Shown: positions 11,786 to 32,634 of the stretch, piece after piece
How the letters are laid out: every line of letters begins with the position of its first letter
Position numbering within the stretch: position 1 is the first letter of the stretch
From: Planctomycetota bacterium
GTDB taxonomy: Bacteria > Planctomycetota > Planctomycetia > Planctomycetales > Planctomycetaceae
Length of the DNA: 32,634 bases
Reading direction: 5' to 3'
NCBI GenBank assembly: GCA_003669615.1
Contig: QWOO01000126.1
Coordinates: 1 to 32,634 of the forward strand
Notes under the pieces: model-generated
The model's database searches: none
What the model was told of the DNA's origin: nothing
Seen by the model: only the letters and a program-made list of their open reading frames with translations
Translations under genes and position numbers: made by a program

Positions 11786-14700
11786 TTAAGTTGCGACAAC
11801 GGCCTGAGCTTCCAACAGCAAAAGGCGGGTGCTGATGTTTTCGGACGGAATGCCGAAGCAGTGTGAAACAGCAAAGCGATACTCTGCCAGCTGCGGGCCG
11901 TAATGAAGCTGTTTGCCTTCAATCCAGCGAGTGCGATCGCCAACGAAGCGGTCTGTTTTAAAGTCCACAACATCCGCAGCAACAGGCCGACCATTACTGT
12001 AAAGCAGAACCAGCCGATCGATCGTTCCCTGAACAAGTTCGCCGTTGTGAAGCAGCACAAACGTGCGTTCTCGTTCGACCTTCAATTGTAATTGCCCGCT
12101 CGCCAGTTGACTTTTGTGCACATCAAATGACGGTGCCCCGCCGCCCGTCGTGTATTCAAACGCTTTTCGAATCTCCGGCTGCTTCAGCATTTTCATAAAA
12201 TCGGGCAACAGCAGATTCACGATGTTATCCGGAACTGACAGCTCCATTGATTGCGTCCGCAGCAGCGCTTCGTCAGGCATTGCAGCAGAACCGTCGAGCC
12301 AGTCTATGCATTCGAACCACGCATGCATGACCGTCCCGCGAGTCCTCGCGTCGACGGCGGGTGGCCCTTTGCGATGAACGGCAACAGGTTCCTCTGGAAG
12401 TTGTCGCTTTGCAATCGCCGAAGTAACTTCAGGCAGGTACAGACGAGTCTCATCATGCCGCGATGGGGCTCGACGCCGAAGTCCTCGCCGACGACCATCC
12501 GGCATCGGTGAAAGTCGCACCTGTGGAATGATCGCCTTCACCATTGTGCGCGGCTGAGCTTCGGCGAATCGCAGATCCGGAAGACCTGTGAACCATTCCG
12601 GATCTCCAGTTTCGTAAAGTGTTGTCGACGGAGGCGCCTGGTTTCCACCGGACAATGCAGCAAGCAAAAGTCCGGCATAGGACTTGGGCGGCTTATCGCT
12701 CATAATCGGCGGGCACAGCAGGTGCATGGCGTGTTTGGCGCGAGTCACAGCCACATAAAAGACGCACAAGCTTTCGGCCACCTGCCGTGAGATGGTGTCT
12801 TCGAAAGCTTTCTGCAAAGACTCCGGCAGCAAGGGACGCAGTGACTTTTTACTCCACACACAAACGCGGTCCGGAGCTTCACCAGGCTTCTCGCTTGTGA
12901 ACGCCGCCTGCGGGCTCTGAAACAACTGCCCATCGATTTCAGGCAAAACAACGACATCGAATTCCAGGCCTTTGCTCTGATGCACCGTCATGACTCGTAC
13001 TGGCGCAGGTTCGGACTTCTGGAATTTACTGTTTTCCAGCAGCCGTACAAAGTCACATGGATTCAGAGAGCCGGTCGCATCAAACAACCATCCCTGAGAC
13101 ACGACCTGCTGCAGTCTCAGCAGATCTCTCGCACTGCACGCCGGTCGTACGGATTCAGACAGCCACTGAAGCGTCTTTCCGTATCCATCGTCCATCAGGC
13201 GTTCGCGAATGGACGCAGCAACTTTCGTGGCCAGCGCCAGATCTCGCCAGCGATGCAGACCAACAACCTCGGCGAACGGCGATCTCGCCACATGGAATCG
13301 CGACACCTGACATGCAGGATGAGACGTCAAATGCAGCAGCGACAATAGAGTCAGAACTGCCGGGCTGTCGGTCGGCGGTGTTCCACCTTCTTCACTGGCC
13401 GGCACATTCAATAGTGACAGCTCATGAACAAGTCGGGCGACCGTGCTGTTTTTCCGAGTCAACACGCCGATCTCCGCGCCGGGAGTCTGCTGATGCAGCT
13501 CGCGAATCTGCTCGGCGACCCAGCGAAACCACGGACCGCGCCGTTCGTCGGCCGACTCGCCTTCCATTGTCGGGGACGTGCGAAAACACACATAACCAGG
13601 CATGTCTTTGTGAGCGGTCGAATGCTCTGGAAACTCATTCGACCACTTCAGACTGGCGGCCGTATAGTCGTCCATGTTGGAATGGTTGGTGATCTGACTG
13701 AAGATCCGATTGACGGCTTCCATCACTGCCGGGGACGATCGACGACTCGTATCGAGTGTATCCGTTTTGATGTCCGTAACAGCCTCGGCCACCGCATCAA
13801 AGATGCCGGCAACACCACCGCGCCAGCCGTAAATTGCCTGCTTCCCATCACCCACACAAAAGAAACTCGATTTGCCTCCGTGATCATTGAGCGATTCCGT
13901 CAGGCGTCTCAGAATTTTCCACTGGTCCGCAGAAGTGTCTTGAAACTCATCCAGCAAAAGATTGCGAATGGAACTGTCCAGACGAAACCCCATGCGTCTC
14001 CCGCTGGCCGCCCCGGCTGACTTTGCCAGGATGCGAGTAACATCATTAAACCGCAGCCAACCATGTTCAGAACGCAGCCTGGAATACTCGCGATCGAAAC
14101 GCGTCATCAGATTGCGAATGGCTTTCATCTGCAGGGCCAGGCGTTCCAGCAGCTCGGCTTTGGCATGGCTCAGCAGGCGTTGATAGATCTCAACAATTTC
14201 GTCATTCAGCGTCTTTCCATAGTACTTCAGATCGTTGGCCAAAACCTTGCTGGCGAGGCCCTTGTCGATGAACTCGTCCCACTGCTCCGTCTGAAATCGC
14301 TCCATGTCTTCCGCCCTCGCTTTAATGAAGCGTTTGTCGGTCGGAAGTGGTGCGGCATACAGATCGCGCTGAGCCTGATCTCGCTGTTCCTGAGTCAGTC
14401 GATTGAGCTTAGGAAGCTTGTTCCACGCCTCATCATCGGTCAGCAAAAACAGTTCATGATAATTGCTGACGGTGTCATCGATCAGGTCTCGCACGCTGCG
14501 CTTCGACCGACCTTTGGCAAGCATCTGCATCAGATTCTGCGCGTCCTGAGGAATGTGTTGCGAAAGCACCGCGTCAATCGATTGTTCTCGCAGCTCACGG
14601 TCGGTGTGTTCATCAACAATGCTCCATCCGGGCGGCAGGCCCAGTTCCAGAGTCAGGCTGCGAGCCACCTGCTGAAAGAAACTGTCGAGCGTACAGACGC

Positions 14701-14989
14701 GCAGGCGATGCAGATGCCGCGTTACATCTGCAAGCAGCGCAAGAGATGTTTCGCACGTGACTTCGGCCGGCGCAAGAAACTCGCTCAGCCGTTTCGCAGC
14801 CTTCGGATCTTCGGCCGCTTCCGCAAGGCGCAGCAGAACGCGTCCAAGAATTTCTCCGGCGGCTTTACGCGTGAATGTTGTGGCAAGAATTGTTTCGGGA
14901 CGGTCGCCAAGGAATAGTTGTCGCAGGAAATGTCCTGACAACTGAAAGGTCTTGCCGCTGCCCGCGGAGGCTTTGATGAGTCGTTTCAT
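11786..14989 (-). CDS. addA: AddA-like UvrD/Rep-family helicase with C-terminal PD-(D/E)XK nuclease
   Basis: Walker A IKASAGSGKTFQL; TFTRKAAGEI; LLDEFQDTSADQWKIL; FFCVGDGKQAIYGWRGG; VMTVHQSKGLEFDVVVLPEID; FYVAVTRAKHAMHLL; C-terminal nuclease ADVVDFKTDRF...YGPQLAEYRFAV. Confidence 0.88.
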   Translation of the reverse strand: MKRLIKASAGSGKTFQLSGHFLRQLFLGDRPETILATTFTRKAAGEILGRVLLRLAEAAEDPKAAKRLSEFLAPAEVTCETSLALLADVTRHLHRLRVCTLDSFFQQVARSLTLELGLPPGWSIVDEHTDRELREQSIDAVLSQHIPQDAQNLMQMLAKGRSKRSVRDLIDDTVSNYHELFLLTDDEAWNKLPKLNRLTQEQRDQAQRDLYAAPLPTDKRFIKARAEDMERFQTEQWDEFIDKGLASKVLANDLKYYGKTLNDEIVEIYQRLLSHAKAELLERLALQMKAIRNLMTRFDREYSRLRSEHGWLRFNDVTRILAKSAGAASGRRMGFRLDSSIRNLLLDEFQDTSADQWKILRRLTESLNDHGGKSSFFCVGDGKQAIYGWRGGVAGIFDAVAEAVTDIKTDTLDTSRRSSPAVMEAVNRIFSQITNHSNMDDYTAASLKWSNEFPEHSTAHKDMPGYVCFRTSPTMEGESADERRGPWFRWVAEQIRELHQQTPGAEIGVLTRKNSTVARLVHELSLLNVPASEEGGTPPTDSPAVLTLLSLLHLTSHPACQVSRFHVARSPFAEVVGLHRWRDLALATKVAASIRERLMDDGYGKTLQWLSESVRPACSARDLLRLQQVVSQGWLFDATGSLNPCDFVRLLENSKFQKSEPAPVRVMTVHQSKGLEFDVVVLPEIDGQLFQSPQAAFTSEKPGEAPDRVCVWSKKSLRPLLPESLQKAFEDTISRQVAESLCVFYVAVTRAKHAMHLLCPPIMSDKPPKSYAGLLLAALSGGNQAPPSTTLYETGDPEWFTGLPDLRFAEAQPRTMVKAIIPQVRLSPMPDGRRRGLRRRAPSRHDETRLYLPEVTSAIAKRQLPEEPVAVHRKGPPAVDARTRGTVMHAWFECIDWLDGSAAMPDEALLRTQSMELSVPDNIVNLLLPDFMKMLKQPEIRKAFEYTTGGGAPSFDVHKSQLASGQLQLKVERERTFVLLHNGELVQGTIDRLVLLYSNGRPVAADVVDFKTDRFVGDRTRWIEGKQLHYGPQLAEYRFAVSHCFGIPSENISTRLLLLEAQAVVAT

Positions 14990-15107
14990 GGTTGCCTGTA
15001 AGCCGATCGTTTTTCAAATCGGCCTTCACGTTCTGGAGAAGATGAAAGGTAGCGAAGTTGGTTTTGGTTTCACTACGCGCAGGAATATCGGCGTGAGTCA
15101 GGTCGAT

Positions 15108-18100
15108 CTACGATGGACTGCCACCGCGACCGGGCCAGGACGCCAGCCACGGAATATTGCGATCGATGACAGGATCCTGACAGATGCGGGCCAGCTCTGA
15201 ATAGCGATCGTCATTTATTGCGGTGACTCGATCAATCTTCAGATCAATGATGTCTGCGGCAACCGTGCGAGCGATCTGCTCAGCTTGCAGAAGTTCCGAA
15301 TCCGTCCACGTCGCCGGCTCGTAACCCACTTTGCTCAGGTCCCCAGGCAACTGGATATAGCCAAGATGAACATCGCCTTTGATGGGAATCGATCTCACCA
15401 GCAAACGATACAACGGCAACTGCAGGTCAACCCATTCATCTTTCTTGCGATGCGTTCTGTTTGGCGGATCAGCCGCTTCGCTGGTTTTATAATCCAGGAC
15501 GCGCCACTCGCCGGTAGACTCCTTCCGATCAATCCGGTCCACTCGACCGATCAACTTCACCGGTCTATTGTGAATGTCTGCGAAATCTTCGCACGTTAAA
15601 TCTCGCTCGGTATAAGCAATTCGCCAGCCGTCACGAAGGCTGTCCACCTGCCACCTCGCAAATGCACTCAGGCGGCTTTCCAGCATTTTGAGTTGCACAC
15701 TGACGGTCGCCGAACGTGACCTTCCGAACTTTCCAAGAGCTTCCCGATGAAGCTCCTGAAACAGAAATGTTTCAATTGCCTCCACGTTCAGAGCTTCGCG
15801 AACAGCCGACTCGCCAAAGCTTTTCAGCACATCATGCATCAGGCTGCCGAACACCGGCGCGTTCAGCTCACGAACGTCGTCTTCCACGTTTCGCAGTCGA
15901 AGCTCTCGACGCAGAAAGTAGCGATAGGGACACTGGATGTACTCACGAAACGCGGTGACAGGAATCTCAACCGGGGCTGCCGGAACATCGATCGGGCAGG
16001 GCACCGCAAAGCCGCTCAGACGAGGCAAAACGTCAGATTCAGCGGCACCTGCGACCTCCACCACACCATCATCAGCCACATATCCAGGATCATAAAAGCG
16101 GTGAACTCGATCGGGAATCGACGCGGAATCAGCGGCAAACCACAAGCGGCTGGGGGCCAGCGGGTTCCCCTGCACGTCCGTTCGGCCGGTGATAAGCACC
16201 ACCTTTCGGCGACTCTTCAGAATCGACGTCAGAGCATAAGCATCTCGCGCATAACGACGGCGATTGTCGGTCAGGTCCAGTCGAGTTCTCAAACTGTTGG
16301 GCATGAAGGCGTCAGAGTTCATGGACTCCGGAACCTTGCCCTCATTGAATCCAGTCAAAATCAACACAGGGCTGTCGTCGAGAGTCAGTTCAAGCCAGCC
16401 AAGCAGCTCTACCGCATCATCGTTCGGCTCGGGCGGAATAATTTCCACGGCGATCTGCTTCAACAGCAACTGCAGCGACTGACTGGCAGTGCAGAGCGGC
16501 AACACAGCGATGGGAATCCTCTGAAGCTGCTCATTCAAATCCTGCAGCTTCGTGACACATTCCACAATTCCCCGATCCGCTGCCGACTCGCTATGGAGTT
16601 CTCGTTCTCCGTAAATGGTCGCGAGGACTCGCACTGCACCTTCGGCCCATTCCGACAACGGACGGCGCTGTTCCAATTGCTGAGTCAGCGACGATGCGAG
16701 CACGTCACCCATTTCATCAAGCGTCCGCTGTCGCGCCCGGTTAACCGGCTGCGTCTTCTGGGAACGCAGTCGGCCCACAGCGGAACCTGCCGATTCGGCC
16801 GTGTACGCATCGGCTACAAGACAGCGAGACAACATCTCCACAGCTCGGCAGAGTTCCGCGACGATAAGTCGACGTGGTGCCTTGCCCAGCATTTCTCCAG
16901 GTGTCACCTGCAGATGATCGGCGATGTATTGGTCCAGTTCGCTCAGCCACATGCCCATTCGATCATAGGCTTCCTCATCGGACAACGTGGCGGCCAAATA
17001 AGTGGTGATCCACTGATTGACGTCCGGATGTCGCACCAGATCATTGAGCGTTGCAAAGTCGGCCGGCATGTCGTCGCGAGCGGATGCAATGTGCAGAGCT
17101 AATGCCTGCAGCAGGCGAAATGGACGTGTTTCCGCAATGTGCATCCCGACCGGCCAGTGACCAGCGATACCGGCATCTGCCATCGCCTGCAGCAGCGTGG
17201 GAACCATCGTGTCATCCGCCACGCCGATTGTGATGTCGTCGGCACGGTAGAGTCCGTTGCTGGAAGAAAGTTCCTTCATCGCCGCATGAGCCTGCTCAAT
17301 CGGCGTCCCGGTGAATCGAGTCTTCGCAGGTTCTATATTGAGCGGGCGATTCTCCCACACGTCGGCTTTCACACAGCCATGTTCATCAAAGGAATCGGCT
17401 TCCGATTCGGGAGCGTGAATCAGCGCGGTGACGCGATCAGAAACCTGATCCAGCATTTTTCGAATGATGCGATTCATGTCGACCGTGCCGATCAGCACAA
17501 TGTCACTGTCGGTGCGGCACTCGTTCATATCCACAGCCACCAGCCGGGCCGCCTGTCGATCCCAAAGTTTCAGTTCATCCATCTGCACAAGGTATTCCGA
17601 CTGAATCCGACGCAGCGCTTTCCAGCGATTCGCTTCTTCAGTGTCGCCCGACTGCATCAGCTTTTCATACACCTCATCAAACTCCAGTCCCTCGCCCGCC
17701 AGCTCGTTGTGTTGCTTACGAAGCGATTCACACAAGGCCATCCATGCGGGAACAGAATCTTCAGGCGGACGATTAGGCAGCGCCTCCTTGATCTCCCACG
17801 ACGGGATCGCATACAGCGCCTTCCGCCAGACCAGTAGTTGTGTCAGATCGTCGGCCAGCTTCTGTTTTTGCGGGTACAACATTTCCGGAAAACGAGTAAA
17901 CGTGACCATCCGTGGAGGAATCAATGCGGGCCACTTGCCGCCGCCTCGCTGCACGAGAAGTTCAAGCATCCGCCGACTCGCGCGCCGTCCCGGAAAGACC
18001 AGAATGACTTTTGACATATCCAGCTGATCCCCGTGAGCATAGCGCCGGATCAGATAATCAGCTGCGGCTGTGAGGGCCGGTTTTTCCCAGTCCAGAAAAT

Positions 18101-18116
18101 GACGAGTGATCGCCAT
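15108..18116 (-). CDS. addB: AddB-like protein with C-terminal PD-(D/E)XK nuclease
   Basis: MAITRHFLDWEKPALTAAADYLIRRYA...VILVFPGRRASRRMLELLVQ; FREYIQCPYRYFLRRELRLRNVED; LIGRVDRIDRKESTGEWRVLDYKTSE...VDLQLPLYRLL. ATG at 18116 preferred; the upstream extension to 18281 looks non-homologous. Confidence 0.82.
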   Translation of the reverse strand: MAITRHFLDWEKPALTAAADYLIRRYAHGDQLDMSKVILVFPGRRASRRMLELLVQRGGGKWPALIPPRMVTFTRFPEMLYPQKQKLADDLTQLLVWRKALYAIPSWEIKEALPNRPPEDSVPAWMALCESLRKQHNELAGEGLEFDEVYEKLMQSGDTEEANRWKALRRIQSEYLVQMDELKLWDRQAARLVAVDMNECRTDSDIVLIGTVDMNRIIRKMLDQVSDRVTALIHAPESEADSFDEHGCVKADVWENRPLNIEPAKTRFTGTPIEQAHAAMKELSSSNGLYRADDITIGVADDTMVPTLLQAMADAGIAGHWPVGMHIAETRPFRLLQALALHIASARDDMPADFATLNDLVRHPDVNQWITTYLAATLSDEEAYDRMGMWLSELDQYIADHLQVTPGEMLGKAPRRLIVAELCRAVEMLSRCLVADAYTAESAGSAVGRLRSQKTQPVNRARQRTLDEMGDVLASSLTQQLEQRRPLSEWAEGAVRVLATIYGERELHSESAADRGIVECVTKLQDLNEQLQRIPIAVLPLCTASQSLQLLLKQIAVEIIPPEPNDDAVELLGWLELTLDDSPVLILTGFNEGKVPESMNSDAFMPNSLRTRLDLTDNRRRYARDAYALTSILKSRRKVVLITGRTDVQGNPLAPSRLWFAADSASIPDRVHRFYDPGYVADDGVVEVAGAAESDVLPRLSGFAVPCPIDVPAAPVEIPVTAFREYIQCPYRYFLRRELRLRNVEDDVRELNAPVFGSLMHDVLKSFGESAVREALNVEAIETFLFQELHREALGKFGRSRSATVSVQLKMLESRLSAFARWQVDSLRDGWRIAYTERDLTCEDFADIHNRPVKLIGRVDRIDRKESTGEWRVLDYKTSEAADPPNRTHRKKDEWVDLQLPLYRLLVRSIPIKGDVHLGYIQLPGDLSKVGYEPATWTDSELLQAEQIARTVAADIIDLKIDRVTAINDDRYSELARICQDPVIDRNIPWLASWPGRGGSPS

Positions 18117-18275
18117 GAAGACTCCATTCCAAAACAAATCCCTGACACATCCTGAAACTCTCAGCCACTGTTGGGGCTGACGTCCGATTTCAACATCCGA
18201 CCGCAGAACCACCGGCGTAGATGGATAAATGCCACAACGGAACGCGACCGCTCTGACGATTTTGAAGGATCGGCC

Positions 18276-18298
18276 GACCAACTGACCAACTGACCAAT
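18276..18298. repeat. Short tandem repeat gaccaact x about 2.9
   Basis: gaccaact gaccaact gaccaat read directly. Confidence 0.85.
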
Positions 18299-27798: not shown

Positions 27799-29054
27799 TA
27801 TGGTTTCTCAATTCGGTAAAGATGCGTGTCTGTGCGCAGGAATATGGAACTATCGACCATCGCCGGACTCGCCAAAGTTCGCCCCTCCAGCTGATTACTG
27901 GCCAGCACCTCAAACTTCTTCCCAGACGCTACGACAGTCGTTTTTCCTTCTTCGTCCAGAAAATAGATTCGCCCGTCAGCAAATGTTGGCGAAGCGGAAA
28001 AATTGCCTCCAATACGTTCCTGCCAATGCTGTTCTCCACTGACAGCATCAAGGCAAGTGGCAATCCCGTTATCACTCACCAGGTACAGTTCATCACCCAG
28101 CAGCAAAGGCGATGGATTCAACGGCGCCGCTTTCTTCATATTCCAGGCAAGATGAGATTCTGTAACATCGCCAGTGCCGTCAACTCGCACCGCAAAGAAC
28201 TCCGGACGATCATATCCCGAACTGATAAACACGTGCCCTTTACCAACAACGGGCCGTGGAACGTTGGAATAACCGTCGTAACGAAACCACCAAAGCTCGT
28301 CACCAGTGAGAGGATCGTACGAAACAATGCTGTCCGCACCGCTGCTTAAGAGTTGAATTTTTCCGTTAATCTCCGTCAGCAACGGTGTCGTATATGCCAT
28401 CGGGACACTGGATTTTCCACTAATCCGGTCTTCCCCGATGTGCCCTCGTTTCTTCTTCCAGACTTCTTTACCGGTGTTCTTATCAAGCGCCACGACGAAC
28501 TGAAGGTCGGATCCATCGCAGTTCAGAATCAGCAGGTTCTGATAGATAACCGGTGAACCTCCGGGACCGTGGCGATGGTTGTGCTTTAGTTCCTGCGTCT
28601 TCCAGACAACAGATCCATCGGTTTTCAAACAGGCGGTTCCATGAGCCCCGAAGTGGATGTAAACTCGATCATCTTCAATCAACGGTGTAGGTGATGCGTG
28701 GCTGTTCTTGGAGTGCACTGCACCAGGATCAGCCAGTTCAAAAACGACCACGTCGTGAATCGTTTTCCCAGTCGCTCGATCCAGTGCAATCGCATGCAGT
28801 GATTTGCCGTCGTCGATCGCAGTTGTCAGCCAGATCTGATCACCCTGAATGGATGGCGAAGACCAGCCAAGACCGGCCACGGGAACTTTCCATACCACGT
28901 TCTCCGTTTCGCTCCATGTCAGCGGAAGATTCGTAGCGTCGGAATGCCCCTGGCCTCCGGGACCTCGAAACTGTGGCCAGTCGGCGGCATTCAGAGGCGA
29001 ACAGACAAGAGACATGATCGTGAGAAGAAGGGCAGGGCGATCCATTTTCAACAC
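27798..29054 (-). CDS. PQQ-binding-like (BamB-type) beta-propeller, secreted
   Basis: Signal peptide; NAADWPQFRGPGGQGHSDATNLPLTWSETENVVWKVPVAGLGWSSPSIQGDQIWLTTA; repeated blade motifs (VYIHFGAHGTACLKTDGSVVWKTQ; VVALDKNTGKEVWKKK; LYLVSDNGIATCLDAVSGEQHWQERI). Confidence 0.93.
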   Translation of the reverse strand: MLKMDRPALLLTIMSLVCSPLNAADWPQFRGPGGQGHSDATNLPLTWSETENVVWKVPVAGLGWSSPSIQGDQIWLTTAIDDGKSLHAIALDRATGKTIHDVVVFELADPGAVHSKNSHASPTPLIEDDRVYIHFGAHGTACLKTDGSVVWKTQELKHNHRHGPGGSPVIYQNLLILNCDGSDLQFVVALDKNTGKEVWKKKRGHIGEDRISGKSSVPMAYTTPLLTEINGKIQLLSSGADSIVSYDPLTGDELWWFRYDGYSNVPRPVVGKGHVFISSGYDRPEFFAVRVDGTGDVTESHLAWNMKKAAPLNPSPLLLGDELYLVSDNGIATCLDAVSGEQHWQERIGGNFSASPTFADGRIYFLDEEGKTTVVASGKKFEVLASNQLEGRTLASPAMVDSSIFLRTDTHLYRIEKP

Positions 29055-29564
29055 TCCCGGCAGGCTGGAAAATATGCAGATTCAGCTATCGTGGTGGATC
29101 TCCAGATGGATTGCAAGAGTCTGCGGAATGCAAAAACCACCAGTTCTACCGAGTACCTTTCGAAATTTTTCTCTCCAGCTGAGCACTTAAGAAAGTTGAA
29201 GCTCAACCCGGGAAGTTGTCACGCAGGATTTTGGCCGCAGAGGTCCACGGGCTGCAGAATGGTACTGGGCTTGCGTCCATGCCTGCCGTCGATTCAGCCG
29301 AGTTCGGCCCGTCGATCTCCGAAACGGACTCGCCTGGCGTTCCGTTCAGAAAGAACACTGGTTTTTCGAACTATATTGCTGGTTGAATGGCACACACGAT
29401 CGTTATAAAAGCGGCGTTGAAATTTCACCGAGGCGAGTGGATGGAATATCAAATGACGTCTGTCACCTCGGTCTCATGATTTTCGACAGCATTTTGCCAT
29501 CCCGCCTGTGGTCCATCTGAATTTGTCGAGCCCTGCGACAGCAATTGTAAAGAGTTTCAATCAC

Positions 29565-30170
29565 ATGATGTCCGAATCTGCAATTCGTGAAAAAAAAGAG
29601 GCTCTGCGCAAGCTGGCTCACACAAATCGCAATGCACAGGAAAATAAAGATGAACTGAGCCGCCGCATTGTCGGTGCGTTCATGTCACTGCCGGAATATG
29701 CGACGGCAGAAGTTGTGATGTTTTACATCGACGTCCGCAGCGAAGTCCGAACTCGCCATGATCTCGAACTGGCCCTGCAATCCGGCAAGACCATCGTCGT
29801 GCCGTGGTGCAACGCCGAAGGGGAACTGGAACTGTTCAAGCTGACCAGCATGGACGAACTGGAACTCGGCATGTACCGAATTCTCGAACCGAAAACCGAA
29901 CTGCGAGACCTTGCCGAAAAACAAATCGATGTGGAATCTCTGGACCTGATCATGGTACCGGGAGTCGGCTTTGATCGTCGCGGCGGTCGCATGGGACACG
30001 GCAAAGGTTATTACGACAAACTGCTGCAGCACGCTCGCCGTGATACACCATTGGTGGCCCTGGCTTTTGAGTGTCAGTTGTTTGACGAAATCCCAGTTGC
30101 TCATCACGACATCTACATGGACAAAATTGTCACTGAGGACAATGTCTATCAGGGCCGTGGTCGAGGCTGA
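29565..30170 (+). CDS. 5-formyltetrahydrofolate cyclo-ligase family protein
   Basis: MMSESAIREKKEALRKLAHTN...VVMFYIDVRSEVRTRHDLELALQSGKTIVVPWCN...LDLIMVPGVGFDRRGGRMGHGKGYYDKLL: 5-FCL signature GxGFDRxGxRxGxGxGYYD. ATG 29565 preferred. Confidence 0.93.
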   Translation: MMSESAIREKKEALRKLAHTNRNAQENKDELSRRIVGAFMSLPEYATAEVVMFYIDVRSEVRTRHDLELALQSGKTIVVPWCNAEGELELFKLTSMDELELGMYRILEPKTELRDLAEKQIDVESLDLIMVPGVGFDRRGGRMGHGKGYYDKLLQHARRDTPLVALAFECQLFDEIPVAHHDIYMDKIVTEDNVYQGRGRG

Positions 30171-30230
30171 TCGGTCCCGGACTTCACATTCCAAACTTCG
30201 TCTCTGTTTTTGATGGTGCGGTAGTCGCTG

Positions 30231-31154
30231 ATGACAAGCTTTGTTGAAGACACGTACGCGGAAGCGTTTCGAAGTTTGTATGTCGAATTTCTAATCACAG
30301 CCCGTGATCGCAAGTGGCTGGATCATGCCATCAACGCAGCCACGGGTTATGGTTCATCCACAATCATGTGCGATTGCGAAGCGGGCCTTGATCGATACGT
30401 CGGGCCCGGCGGAGATGAATCGTTCGTCACTCCAGATGGTCGGCCGGGGGCAATCTGCCAGCTGCACGTGCCTCGCTTCTGGAAGCACCGTGTCGAGGCG
30501 CTCGAAAAAGCGTTGCTGGCACGTGTCTGTCAGAATGTTCTGACGTGTCCGACCACTGCCTGCTTTTCACTCAGCGACACCGAACCTTATTACAAGCTTG
30601 GTCGTAAGCTCTCATTTTTCGGCGACGGCCACGAGCAGCTCGAAGATCGCTTCGGCCGCAGAATGTGGGTCGTTCCAACGATGGGCGGCGAGTTCTGTAT
30701 CGACCGCCGTTTCGGGTATCACGATGGTGTGATGGGCGGCAACCTGTGGTTTATGGCGACCAGCGTGGACGCTTCACTGGAAGCGGCCGAACGAGCTGTC
30801 GCGGCCTGCCAGACAGTGCCGGGCGTCATCACCCCGTTCCCTGGTGGAGTTGCAGCCAGCGGTTCCAAGGCCGGCAGTCGTCACAAATTTATGTTCGCGA
30901 GCACCAATCATCCGTTCTGTCCTACGCTGAAGGGCCGATCGGGAATTGATTCGCAGATTCCAGACGGCATCAAGTCGGTGATGGAGATCATCATCAACGG
31001 CCATGATCTGGCCACCGTCAGTGCGGCGACTCAAGCGGCCATCAAGGCTGCGTCGATTGTTCCCGGTGTCGAAAAGATTACGGCCGGCAACTATGGTGGC
31101 CGTCTCGGCAAAGCCTGGGTCTGGCTGATTCCTGAGAATCACGCAGACGCGTAG
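30231..31154 (+). CDS. ftr: Formylmethanofuran--tetrahydromethanopterin N-formyltransferase
   Basis: EDTYAEAFRSLYVEFLITARDRKWLDHAINAATGYGSSTIMCDCEAGLDRYVGPGGDESFVTPDGRPGAICQLHVPRF...VLTCPTTACFSLSD...GRKLSFFGDGHE...IDRRFGYHDGVMGGNLWFMA: Ftr/FhcD family throughout. Confidence 0.96.
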   Translation: MTSFVEDTYAEAFRSLYVEFLITARDRKWLDHAINAATGYGSSTIMCDCEAGLDRYVGPGGDESFVTPDGRPGAICQLHVPRFWKHRVEALEKALLARVCQNVLTCPTTACFSLSDTEPYYKLGRKLSFFGDGHEQLEDRFGRRMWVVPTMGGEFCIDRRFGYHDGVMGGNLWFMATSVDASLEAAERAVAACQTVPGVITPFPGGVAASGSKAGSRHKFMFASTNHPFCPTLKGRSGIDSQIPDGIKSVMEIIINGHDLATVSAATQAAIKAASIVPGVEKITAGNYGGRLGKAWVWLIPENHADA

Positions 31155-31311
31155 CGTGTGACCGTAATTCGCAGGGTATGACAAGCGCAGCGCAGGCTCG
31201 ACAATTTCGCAATCTGCCTCACAATGAAACCGCAACAACAACGGTGTGCCTGCGGTCGCTGGCGCCCCCTTGTCACACCCTGCAAATAGATGGACACGCG
31301 GGGCACACCGC

Positions 31312-32634
31312 TCACATCGTGCGGAGAATCTTCACGGCCTCAATCGCGCCGAGTTCGGGCGACAACGCTGTGATCGCGATGCCTGACACTACCTTCGTGA
31401 TGTTGTGATCCACTTTGTCGACTTCACCCCAAACATCTCCATTAGCGACCGTCATGTAGATCGACAACGTGTGATGGCCGCTTCCCGGGCGTTCACCAAT
31501 CACATGCAGGGTCGTGAAGCGACCCTTTCGGCCACCGAAGAGCTGTTCGCCAATGCGATACCCGGCTCGCACTCGACCTGCCTCGACGATGACATTTGTC
31601 GGCGCGACTTTAAAGCCCGAGCCGACTAGTTCCTTTCGGAGTCGACGCACAAGGCTCATCAGCTGATCGCCGTCCGTCACGGCCAGCGCATTCAGTCCAT
31701 CAGAGATTACAATCTGCGTATCGGACTGCTGACTCTGCTCGCGCAGCTGCTGAATGAGCGTCTTCGAATCGTCCGAAAGATGCTCACCCGAAACCGGGTG
31801 CAGAATGTAGTCTTCACGATCGGCCGACTGTGTTTTCAGCCGGACGACATTCGGAATCGTTGAGACAAACACATCATCCAGCTCTTTCCAGATGGAGATC
31901 TTTGCATCGTCGTAAATGTGCTGGATATGTTCGGCCAGCGACGGCTGAAGGGCCGAGTAGCTTTCTCCAAAACCTTCGGCAATAAACACGCCGCGAGATC
32001 TCACTTCGGCGATTCGCACCTTCGCTTCTGCACGGATCTCTGCCTCCGGACGCGCATCCTGTTTGCGACGGCAATATTGCAGATAAACCCAGGCCGGATC
32101 TCCGAAATGCTGTGTCGGTTTTCCTGCGGCATCAATCACGCCCAGTGCCTGAAAGAACGACCACATGCGATCGTCGACTTTGAAACCGAACGTCTCACGG
32201 ATGTGAACATGATCCTGGTAACCGGTTGTCAGATAGCCGAGCATCGGATCAATACGAGTTGGCAGGGCCATCAGATACCCGGGATTCGCGGGCATGATCT
32301 GATCGATACACCAGCCCAGATCATTCAGACTGACGTCCATGTGCAGAGTCGAACAAACATCCAGGCCAATCATCAGACCATGCAGCTTGCCCATCACGAT
32401 ATCTTCAAGGCAGCATCGCACCAACTGTTCTCGAGAACGAAAACCCTCCGGCCCGATAAAGCCGGCGACATCATTGAGATGAACCCACGGACTTTCGGTG
32501 CGGCCTTTTTTCGCCAATGCGCTCGCAACCGTTTTTGTCAAAGCTCGGGCAAAGCCGTATTTACGCGATTCATGGATGACCATGTCGGTCCCTTGACCAT
32601 GTCCGTTCGTAAAATCCGCGCCCTGTCCGGTTTC
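31312..32634 (-). CDS. Ethanolamine ammonia-lyase, EutB C-terminal region fused to EutC (5' end beyond the window)
   Basis: The frame stays open past the ORF-track start to the edge: ETGQGADFTNGHGQGTDMVIHESRKYGFARAL...DVAGFIGPEGFRSREQLVRCCLEDIVMGKLHGLMIGLDVCSTLHMDVSLNDLGWCIDQIMPANPGYLMALPTRIDPMLGYLTTGYQDHVHIRETFGFK (EutB), then ISDGLNALAVTD...VEAGRVRAGYRIGEQLFG...HVIGERPGSGHHTLSIYMTVANGDVWGEVDKVDHNITKVVSGIA (EutC) without a stop between. Confidence 0.92.
   Translation of the reverse strand, partial: ETGQGADFTNGHGQGTDMVIHESRKYGFARALTKTVASALAKKGRTESPWVHLNDVAGFIGPEGFRSREQLVRCCLEDIVMGKLHGLMIGLDVCSTLHMDVSLNDLGWCIDQIMPANPGYLMALPTRIDPMLGYLTTGYQDHVHIRETFGFKVDDRMWSFFQALGVIDAAGKPTQHFGDPAWVYLQYCRRKQDARPEAEIRAEAKVRIAEVRSRGVFIAEGFGESYSALQPSLAEHIQHIYDDAKISIWKELDDVFVSTIPNVVRLKTQSADREDYILHPVSGEHLSDDSKTLIQQLREQSQQSDTQIVISDGLNALAVTDGDQLMSLVRRLRKELVGSGFKVAPTNVIVEAGRVRAGYRIGEQLFGGRKGRFTTLHVIGERPGSGHHTLSIYMTVANGDVWGEVDKVDHNITKVVSGIAITALSPELGAIEAVKILRTM

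Follow-up and report, generated by a model that had tools for sequence, protein, structure and literature searches.

A divergent second Ftr-family gene beside 5-formyltetrahydrofolate cyclo-ligase in planctomycetes, with a putative role between methanofuran and folate

We identified in a planctomycete contig a 5-formyltetrahydrofolate cyclo-ligase (5-FCL) gene followed by the gene of a divergent second member of the formyltransferase (Ftr) family, here referred to as Ftr2. The pair probably acts as a bridge between two C1 pools, at which Ftr2 would move the formyl group from formylmethanofuran to N5 of tetrahydrofolate (H4F), and 5-FCL, with ATP, would turn the product into methenyl-H4F. Both H4F as the acceptor of Ftr2 and a flux towards folate are what we infer. 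On this reading, two genes that automated annotation would label as unrelated enzymes acquire a role as a pair, and a reaction still missing between the methanofuran and folate C1 pools is predicted.

The gene pair and its divergent formyltransferase

The window, by which we mean the whole 32,634 bp stretch of DNA analysed, is contig C97 of a source genome with 62% completeness. On its plus strand, 5-FCL is encoded at 29565-30170 (PF01812, 135.8 bits; TIGR02727, 145.5 bits with a cut-off of 84.9) and Ftr2 at 30231-31154 (PF01913, 141.3 bits, and PF02741, 185.4 bits, both above the curated cut-off; TIGR03119, 326.2 bits with a cut-off of 292.6). The initial annotation had described a 5-FCL gene adjoining an Ftr gene on the same strand at about 60 bp; the coordinates and both families were confirmed, and the gap is 60 bp (30171-30230). 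A weak test saw no sigma-70-like promoter in this gap, and in some relatives the stop codon of the 5-FCL gene and the start codon of ftr2 overlap. No riboswitch or other known RNA from Rfam matched the region around the pair (28900-31400). It had also been stated that the window holds no other H4MPT genes, and indeed tblastn gave no match there for FhcA, FhcB, FhcC, Mch, MtdB-like or RFAP synthase, nor for FolD.

Other parts of the window carry genes of different kinds. On the minus strand, EutB and EutC domains occur in one open frame running off the contig end (31312-32634), an apparent fusion of the large and small subunits of ethanolamine ammonia-lyase. Also on that strand, at 11786-18281, lie two large adjoining genes that look like an AddAB-type pair: one encodes a UvrD-type helicase bearing a PD-(D/E)XK domain, the other a further PD-(D/E)XK protein.

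Beyond what the initial annotation held, the Ftr of the window turned out to be a second paralogue. When 170 genomes from the window's planctomycete family were searched, its own genome yielded two Ftr genes, 44% identical to each other; the canonical one, Ftr1, lies on another contig (C334 of G000, 13434-14351) and scores 431.8 bits with TIGR03119 (rounded, 432 vs 326 for Ftr2). Across the 170 genomes the identities to the window Ftr2 are bimodal, being at least 59% for the Ftr2 type and at most 50% for the Ftr1 type, and Ftr2 was found in 105 of these genomes. Among 392 genomes sampled across the phylum, matches of the Ftr2 type were limited to the same class, in families f1, f2 and f4. In an 89-row tree, a 100/100 branch with a length of 1.16 separates Ftr2 from Ftr1, archaeal Ftr and FhcD, and Ftr2 does not group with the characterised Ftr or FhcD; as the tree is midpoint-rooted, the age of this branch is unsure. 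The gammaproteobacterial Ftr2 sequences are nested within the planctomycete ones. One Ftr2 from a Pirellulaceae MAG (L162, 8001-8921), with no 5-FCL nearby, falls inside the gammaproteobacterial Ftr2 clade, which reflects either transfer or mis-binning.

Alignment revealed an Ftr2-specific insert, HVPRFWKHR, at residues 79-87 (codons 30465-30491, plus strand). The insert, with HVPRF at residues 79-83 of the window protein, is present in 45/45 Ftr2 and 0/40 Ftr1, and is missing from three archaeal Ftr and FhcD; in the insert region H79, P81, R82, F83, K85 and R87 are invariant in all 45 Ftr2. Eight residues (R82, K85, R87, R140, R159, N102, M168 and W173) are invariant in 45/45 Ftr2 and occur in at most 5% of the 40 Ftr1. 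Glu252 (codon 30984-30986, plus strand) aligns with Glu245 of Methanopyrus kandleri Ftr, which we take to be catalytic, and is invariant in 89/89 aligned sequences. The predicted fold of Ftr2 (model pLDDT 84.3) is the Ftr fold, with a TM score of 0.83 to 1m5s and 1ftr, and the sole close structural matches of the model were 1m5s, 1ftr, 1m5h and chain D of 6s6y. Judged from sequence, it is Ftr2 and not 5-FCL that departs from its own family, and the fact that Ftr2 keeps the invariant Glu while gaining invariant Arg and Lys residues supports the proposed bridge.

Conservation of the pair and the accompanying 5-FCL in planctomycetes

Within the 170 genomes of the family, 5-FCL is present in 104 of the 105 genomes with Ftr2 vs 28 of the 65 without (Fisher p 1.7e-18); corrected for phylogeny only to genus level, the counts are 33/34 genera with Ftr2 vs 10/24 without (p 2e-6). 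Conserved adjacency was among the checks proposed in the initial annotation, and 5-FCL was found directly upstream of Ftr2 on the same strand in 76 of the 104 genomes with both, from 21 genera, as well as in Gammaproteobacteria; conservation on this scale rules out chance adjacency. The pair is not adjacent in the other 28 of the 104, in some owing to contig ends, and this counts against the bridge. A scan of public genome contigs gave 80 loci with Ftr2; in 61 of them the first gene recognised upstream, within about 0.6 kb, is 5-FCL, while one locus (L128) has a partial 5-FCL downstream of Ftr2, not upstream. The earlier suggestion that the pair links the folate and H4MPT pools is supported, in the sense that folate and the methanofuran-H4MPT pool would be functionally connected, and so is conserved synteny; its version of a 5-FCL paralogue recruited for 5-formyl-H4MPT, which is taken up with the gammaproteobacterial loci, is not.

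The 5-FCL of the window is the sole copy found in the 62% complete source genome, and by its score appears to be an ordinary 5-FCL; it contains the glycine-rich motif of the family (PGVGFDRRGGRMGHGKGYYDK), and the GHGKGYYD motif is conserved. Nearly every genome having a 5-FCL has a single one, and the few second matches in planctomycetes are partial. A dedicated 5-FCL paralogue beside Ftr2 was therefore ruled out. The sampled 5-FCLs of Ftr2 genomes, adjacent or not, form one clade together with the gammaproteobacterial copies (99/96, in a tree whose bootstrap had not settled and in which several outer branches are long). The same clade holds five 5-FCLs from Ftr2-less genomes (G014, G021, G068, G101 and G154); since other species of their genera have Ftr2, it was probably lost or missed in these five. 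Wherever a sampled 5-FCL was deeply divergent, its genome lacked Ftr2. Co-occurrence of 5-FCL with Ftr2, the one shared 5-FCL subfamily and the parallel nesting of the gammaproteobacterial copies support the bridge.

A different gene content was observed in genus g10 (G024-G040), many members of which are single-contig and 99-100% complete. None of its 17 members was among the 5-FCL matches, Ftr1 was the sole type in those with an Ftr match, and 12 of the 17 possess Fhs.

Formate-H4F ligase (Fhs) was detected in 15 of the 105 planctomycetes with Ftr2 vs 15 of the 65 without (p 0.15; genus level p 0.53), so the idea that Ftr2 has taken the place of Fhs in planctomycetes has no statistical support. 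Ftr2 and Fhs occur together in 15 planctomycete genomes, and the failure of Fhs presence to track Ftr2 counts against the bridge. Beside the planctomycete pair, tblastn found no match for the serine-cycle gene set, save a distant Hpr-type match 4 kb off in one locus (L110). As most genomes are MAGs, failure to find a gene carries little weight, which also counts against the bridge.

In genus g3, Ftr2 is the only Ftr found in G003 (a single contig) and G004, both 97% complete and both with Mch; Ftr2 may serve H4MPT there, which would mean that H4MPT activity was kept in some lineages. These two genomes speak for Ftr2 being an isoenzyme with the ordinary formylmethanofuran and H4MPT reaction, beside a 5-FCL that only repairs 5-formyl-H4F made by SHMT. 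So does the TIGR03119 cut-off, passed by most Ftr2 tested: the other Ftr2 proteins scored 289 to 312 bits, most above 292.6, with two gammaproteobacterial ones just under it (L175, 289.2; L207, 289.7). 5-Formyl-H4F is a by-product of SHMT and the 5-FCL family is usually viewed as serving repair and not assimilation; such repair would suit any organism with high SHMT flux, and that serine-cycle bacteria may need 5-FCL anyway counts against the bridge. However, we regard the isoenzyme as unlikely, because it leaves unexplained why a second Ftr stays with 5-FCL across phyla, why Ftr2 has its own invariant residues, and why it is placed in a putative serine-cycle operon of genomes in which Fhs was mostly not found.

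The pair in a putative gammaproteobacterial serine-cycle operon

That operon was identified through public loci. Three of the 61 loci with an upstream 5-FCL carry a Gammaproteobacteria label, the gap there being estimated at 0-2 bp, and the flanks of L176 (lepA, lepB, rnc and era as read) look gammaproteobacterial. In the order to which L175 belongs, Ftr2 is present in 18 of 19 genomes and 5-FCL adjoins it in 18 of 18. The operon order in the long regions read is IlvD, 5-FCL, Ftr2, an SGA-like aminotransferase, an Mcl-like lyase, MtkA, MtkB, Hpr and Ppc. A FolD gene between Ftr2 and the aminotransferase was read directly in L206, L207, L208 and L211, and L210 has a FolD-sized gap there; in L175 and L209 the space of about 60-125 bp leaves no room for FolD at that place, which counts against the bridge. 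Family searches supported MtkA (684.8 bits, over a cut-off of 604), PEPcase (783 bits with Pfam) and FolD. The SGA-like aminotransferase had BhcA as its best match, under the BhcA cut-off, and serine-glyoxylate aminotransferase is our reading of it; for Mcl and Hpr, the assignment comes from family and context only. The gammaproteobacterial pattern may represent a single evolutionary event, which also counts against the bridge.

Fhs scored over the cut-off in only one of the 18 Ftr2 genomes of this order (G538); it was also found in G535, and not in G534 or G536. The bridge is the simplest account of both the operon and the near absence of Fhs there, and the gene content, with serine-cycle genes and, next to Ftr2 in four loci, FolD, fits its steps. 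In the two genomes of the order examined for it, G538 and G534, canonical Ftr1 is part of Fwd/Fhc clusters, and in G534 Mch, RFAP synthase and a gene read as MtdB (with no NCBIfam equivalog match) are near the cluster; H4MPT is thus already served by its own Ftr in these genomes. Locus L213 (G538:C1:942000-961500) contains a pair of Fwd/Fhc clusters separated by about 15 kb, with a methanethiol oxidase gene in the interval; FwdD and a ferredoxin-like gene belong to one of the two.

A Methylococcaceae MAG (G535) also has the pair, which there precedes an MfnB-like methanofuran biosynthesis gene, and this neighbour supports the bridge. At the Ftr2 level (>45% identity), only G535 was among the matches listed for the 201 genomes of its order, which rules out Ftr2 as a general trait of that order.

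The gammaproteobacterial neighbours also bear on the recruited paralogue of the initial annotation, namely that the 5-FCL of the Ftr2-linked subfamily acts on 5-formyl-H4MPT, the Ftr product. Adjacency to an Ftr gene and a 5-FCL subfamily common to Ftr2 genomes would suit such an activity. It is highly improbable, as the Ftr2-linked 5-FCL has an ordinary score and is normally the genome's sole 5-FCL, Mch, which handles 5-formyl-H4MPT free of ATP, was found in 158 of the 170 family genomes, and the enzymes encoded beside the gammaproteobacterial copies include those of the serine cycle and of folate, often FolD.

Proposed route from methanofuran to folate and its nearest relatives

The product of Ftr carries an N5-formyl group, and the substrate of 5-FCL is N5-formyl-H4F; formylmethanofuran is the step preceding formate in the H4MPT branch. 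In the proposed route, formylmethanofuran would be supplied from formaldehyde via H4MPT, Mch and Ftr1, and Ftr2 would transfer its formyl group to N5 of H4F, giving 5-formyl-H4F. At the cost of one ATP, 5-FCL would cyclise this product to 5,10-methenyl-H4F and so draw the reversible transfer in the forward direction. FolD would reduce methenyl-H4F, and the resulting methylene-H4F would feed the synthesis of serine, purines and thymidylate. Such a route would bypass both formate and formate-H4F ligase (Fhs/FtfL). We lean towards a formylmethanofuran:tetrahydrofolate N5-formyltransferase, an undescribed activity, which together with 5-FCL would constitute a formate-free entry of C1 units into folate. 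As a speculation, CO2-derived formyl groups could enter the serine cycle through Ftr2 and 5-FCL in the gammaproteobacterial order, where an Fwd-type cluster with ferredoxin lies beside Ftr1.

Ftr reactions are reversible, and Ftr2 might instead run backwards on folate, passing the formyl group of 5-formyl-H4F to methanofuran so that Fhc releases formate, as a means of folate disposal. This would account for the co-occurrence with 5-FCL as well, but we consider it quite improbable, since beside a 5-FCL heading an assimilatory operon the two enzymes would compete. If the transfer towards folate is true, it would explain how the serine cycle could be fed in bacteria that lack formate-H4F ligase, and would make the physiological use of the H4MPT enzymes in planctomycetes directly testable. 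Against it counts another route to methylene-H4F, the spontaneous condensation of formaldehyde with H4F, which is described in PMC8879981. In the parts covered of the open-access literature on planctomycete C1 genes and the serine cycle (PMC5020050, PMC8879981, PMC4807772, PMC2948502 and PMC3505017; the original planctomycete C1 paper of 2004 is outside this scope), there is no report of a second Ftr linked to 5-FCL.

Among known systems, Ftr itself (TIGR03119; 1ftr, 1m5s and 1m5h) resembles Ftr2 in fold (TM 0.83), in 43-46% identity by structure alignment, in the invariant Glu and in both Pfam domains, whereas Ftr2 differs by its separate clade, the HVPRF insert, the new invariant Arg and Lys residues and the linkage to 5-FCL. 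FhcD of Methylorubrum extorquens (6s6y chain D) is of the same family, with a TM score of about 0.82, but is a subunit of the formyltransferase/hydrolase complex FhcABCD; tblastn gave no match for FhcA, FhcB or FhcC homologues in the Ftr2 neighbourhoods searched. The FtfL/Fhs route of the M. extorquens AM1 serine cycle, like the proposed pair, brings C1 units at the formyl level onto folate at the cost of ATP; in AM1, according to PMC8879981, the path to the serine cycle branches off at formate, whereas here formate would be bypassed. Finally, the window 5-FCL is similar to 5-FCL in general (TIGR02727, MTHFS) in passing the curated cut-off and having the GHGKGYYD motif, and differs from it in belonging to a distinct subfamily that accompanies Ftr2.
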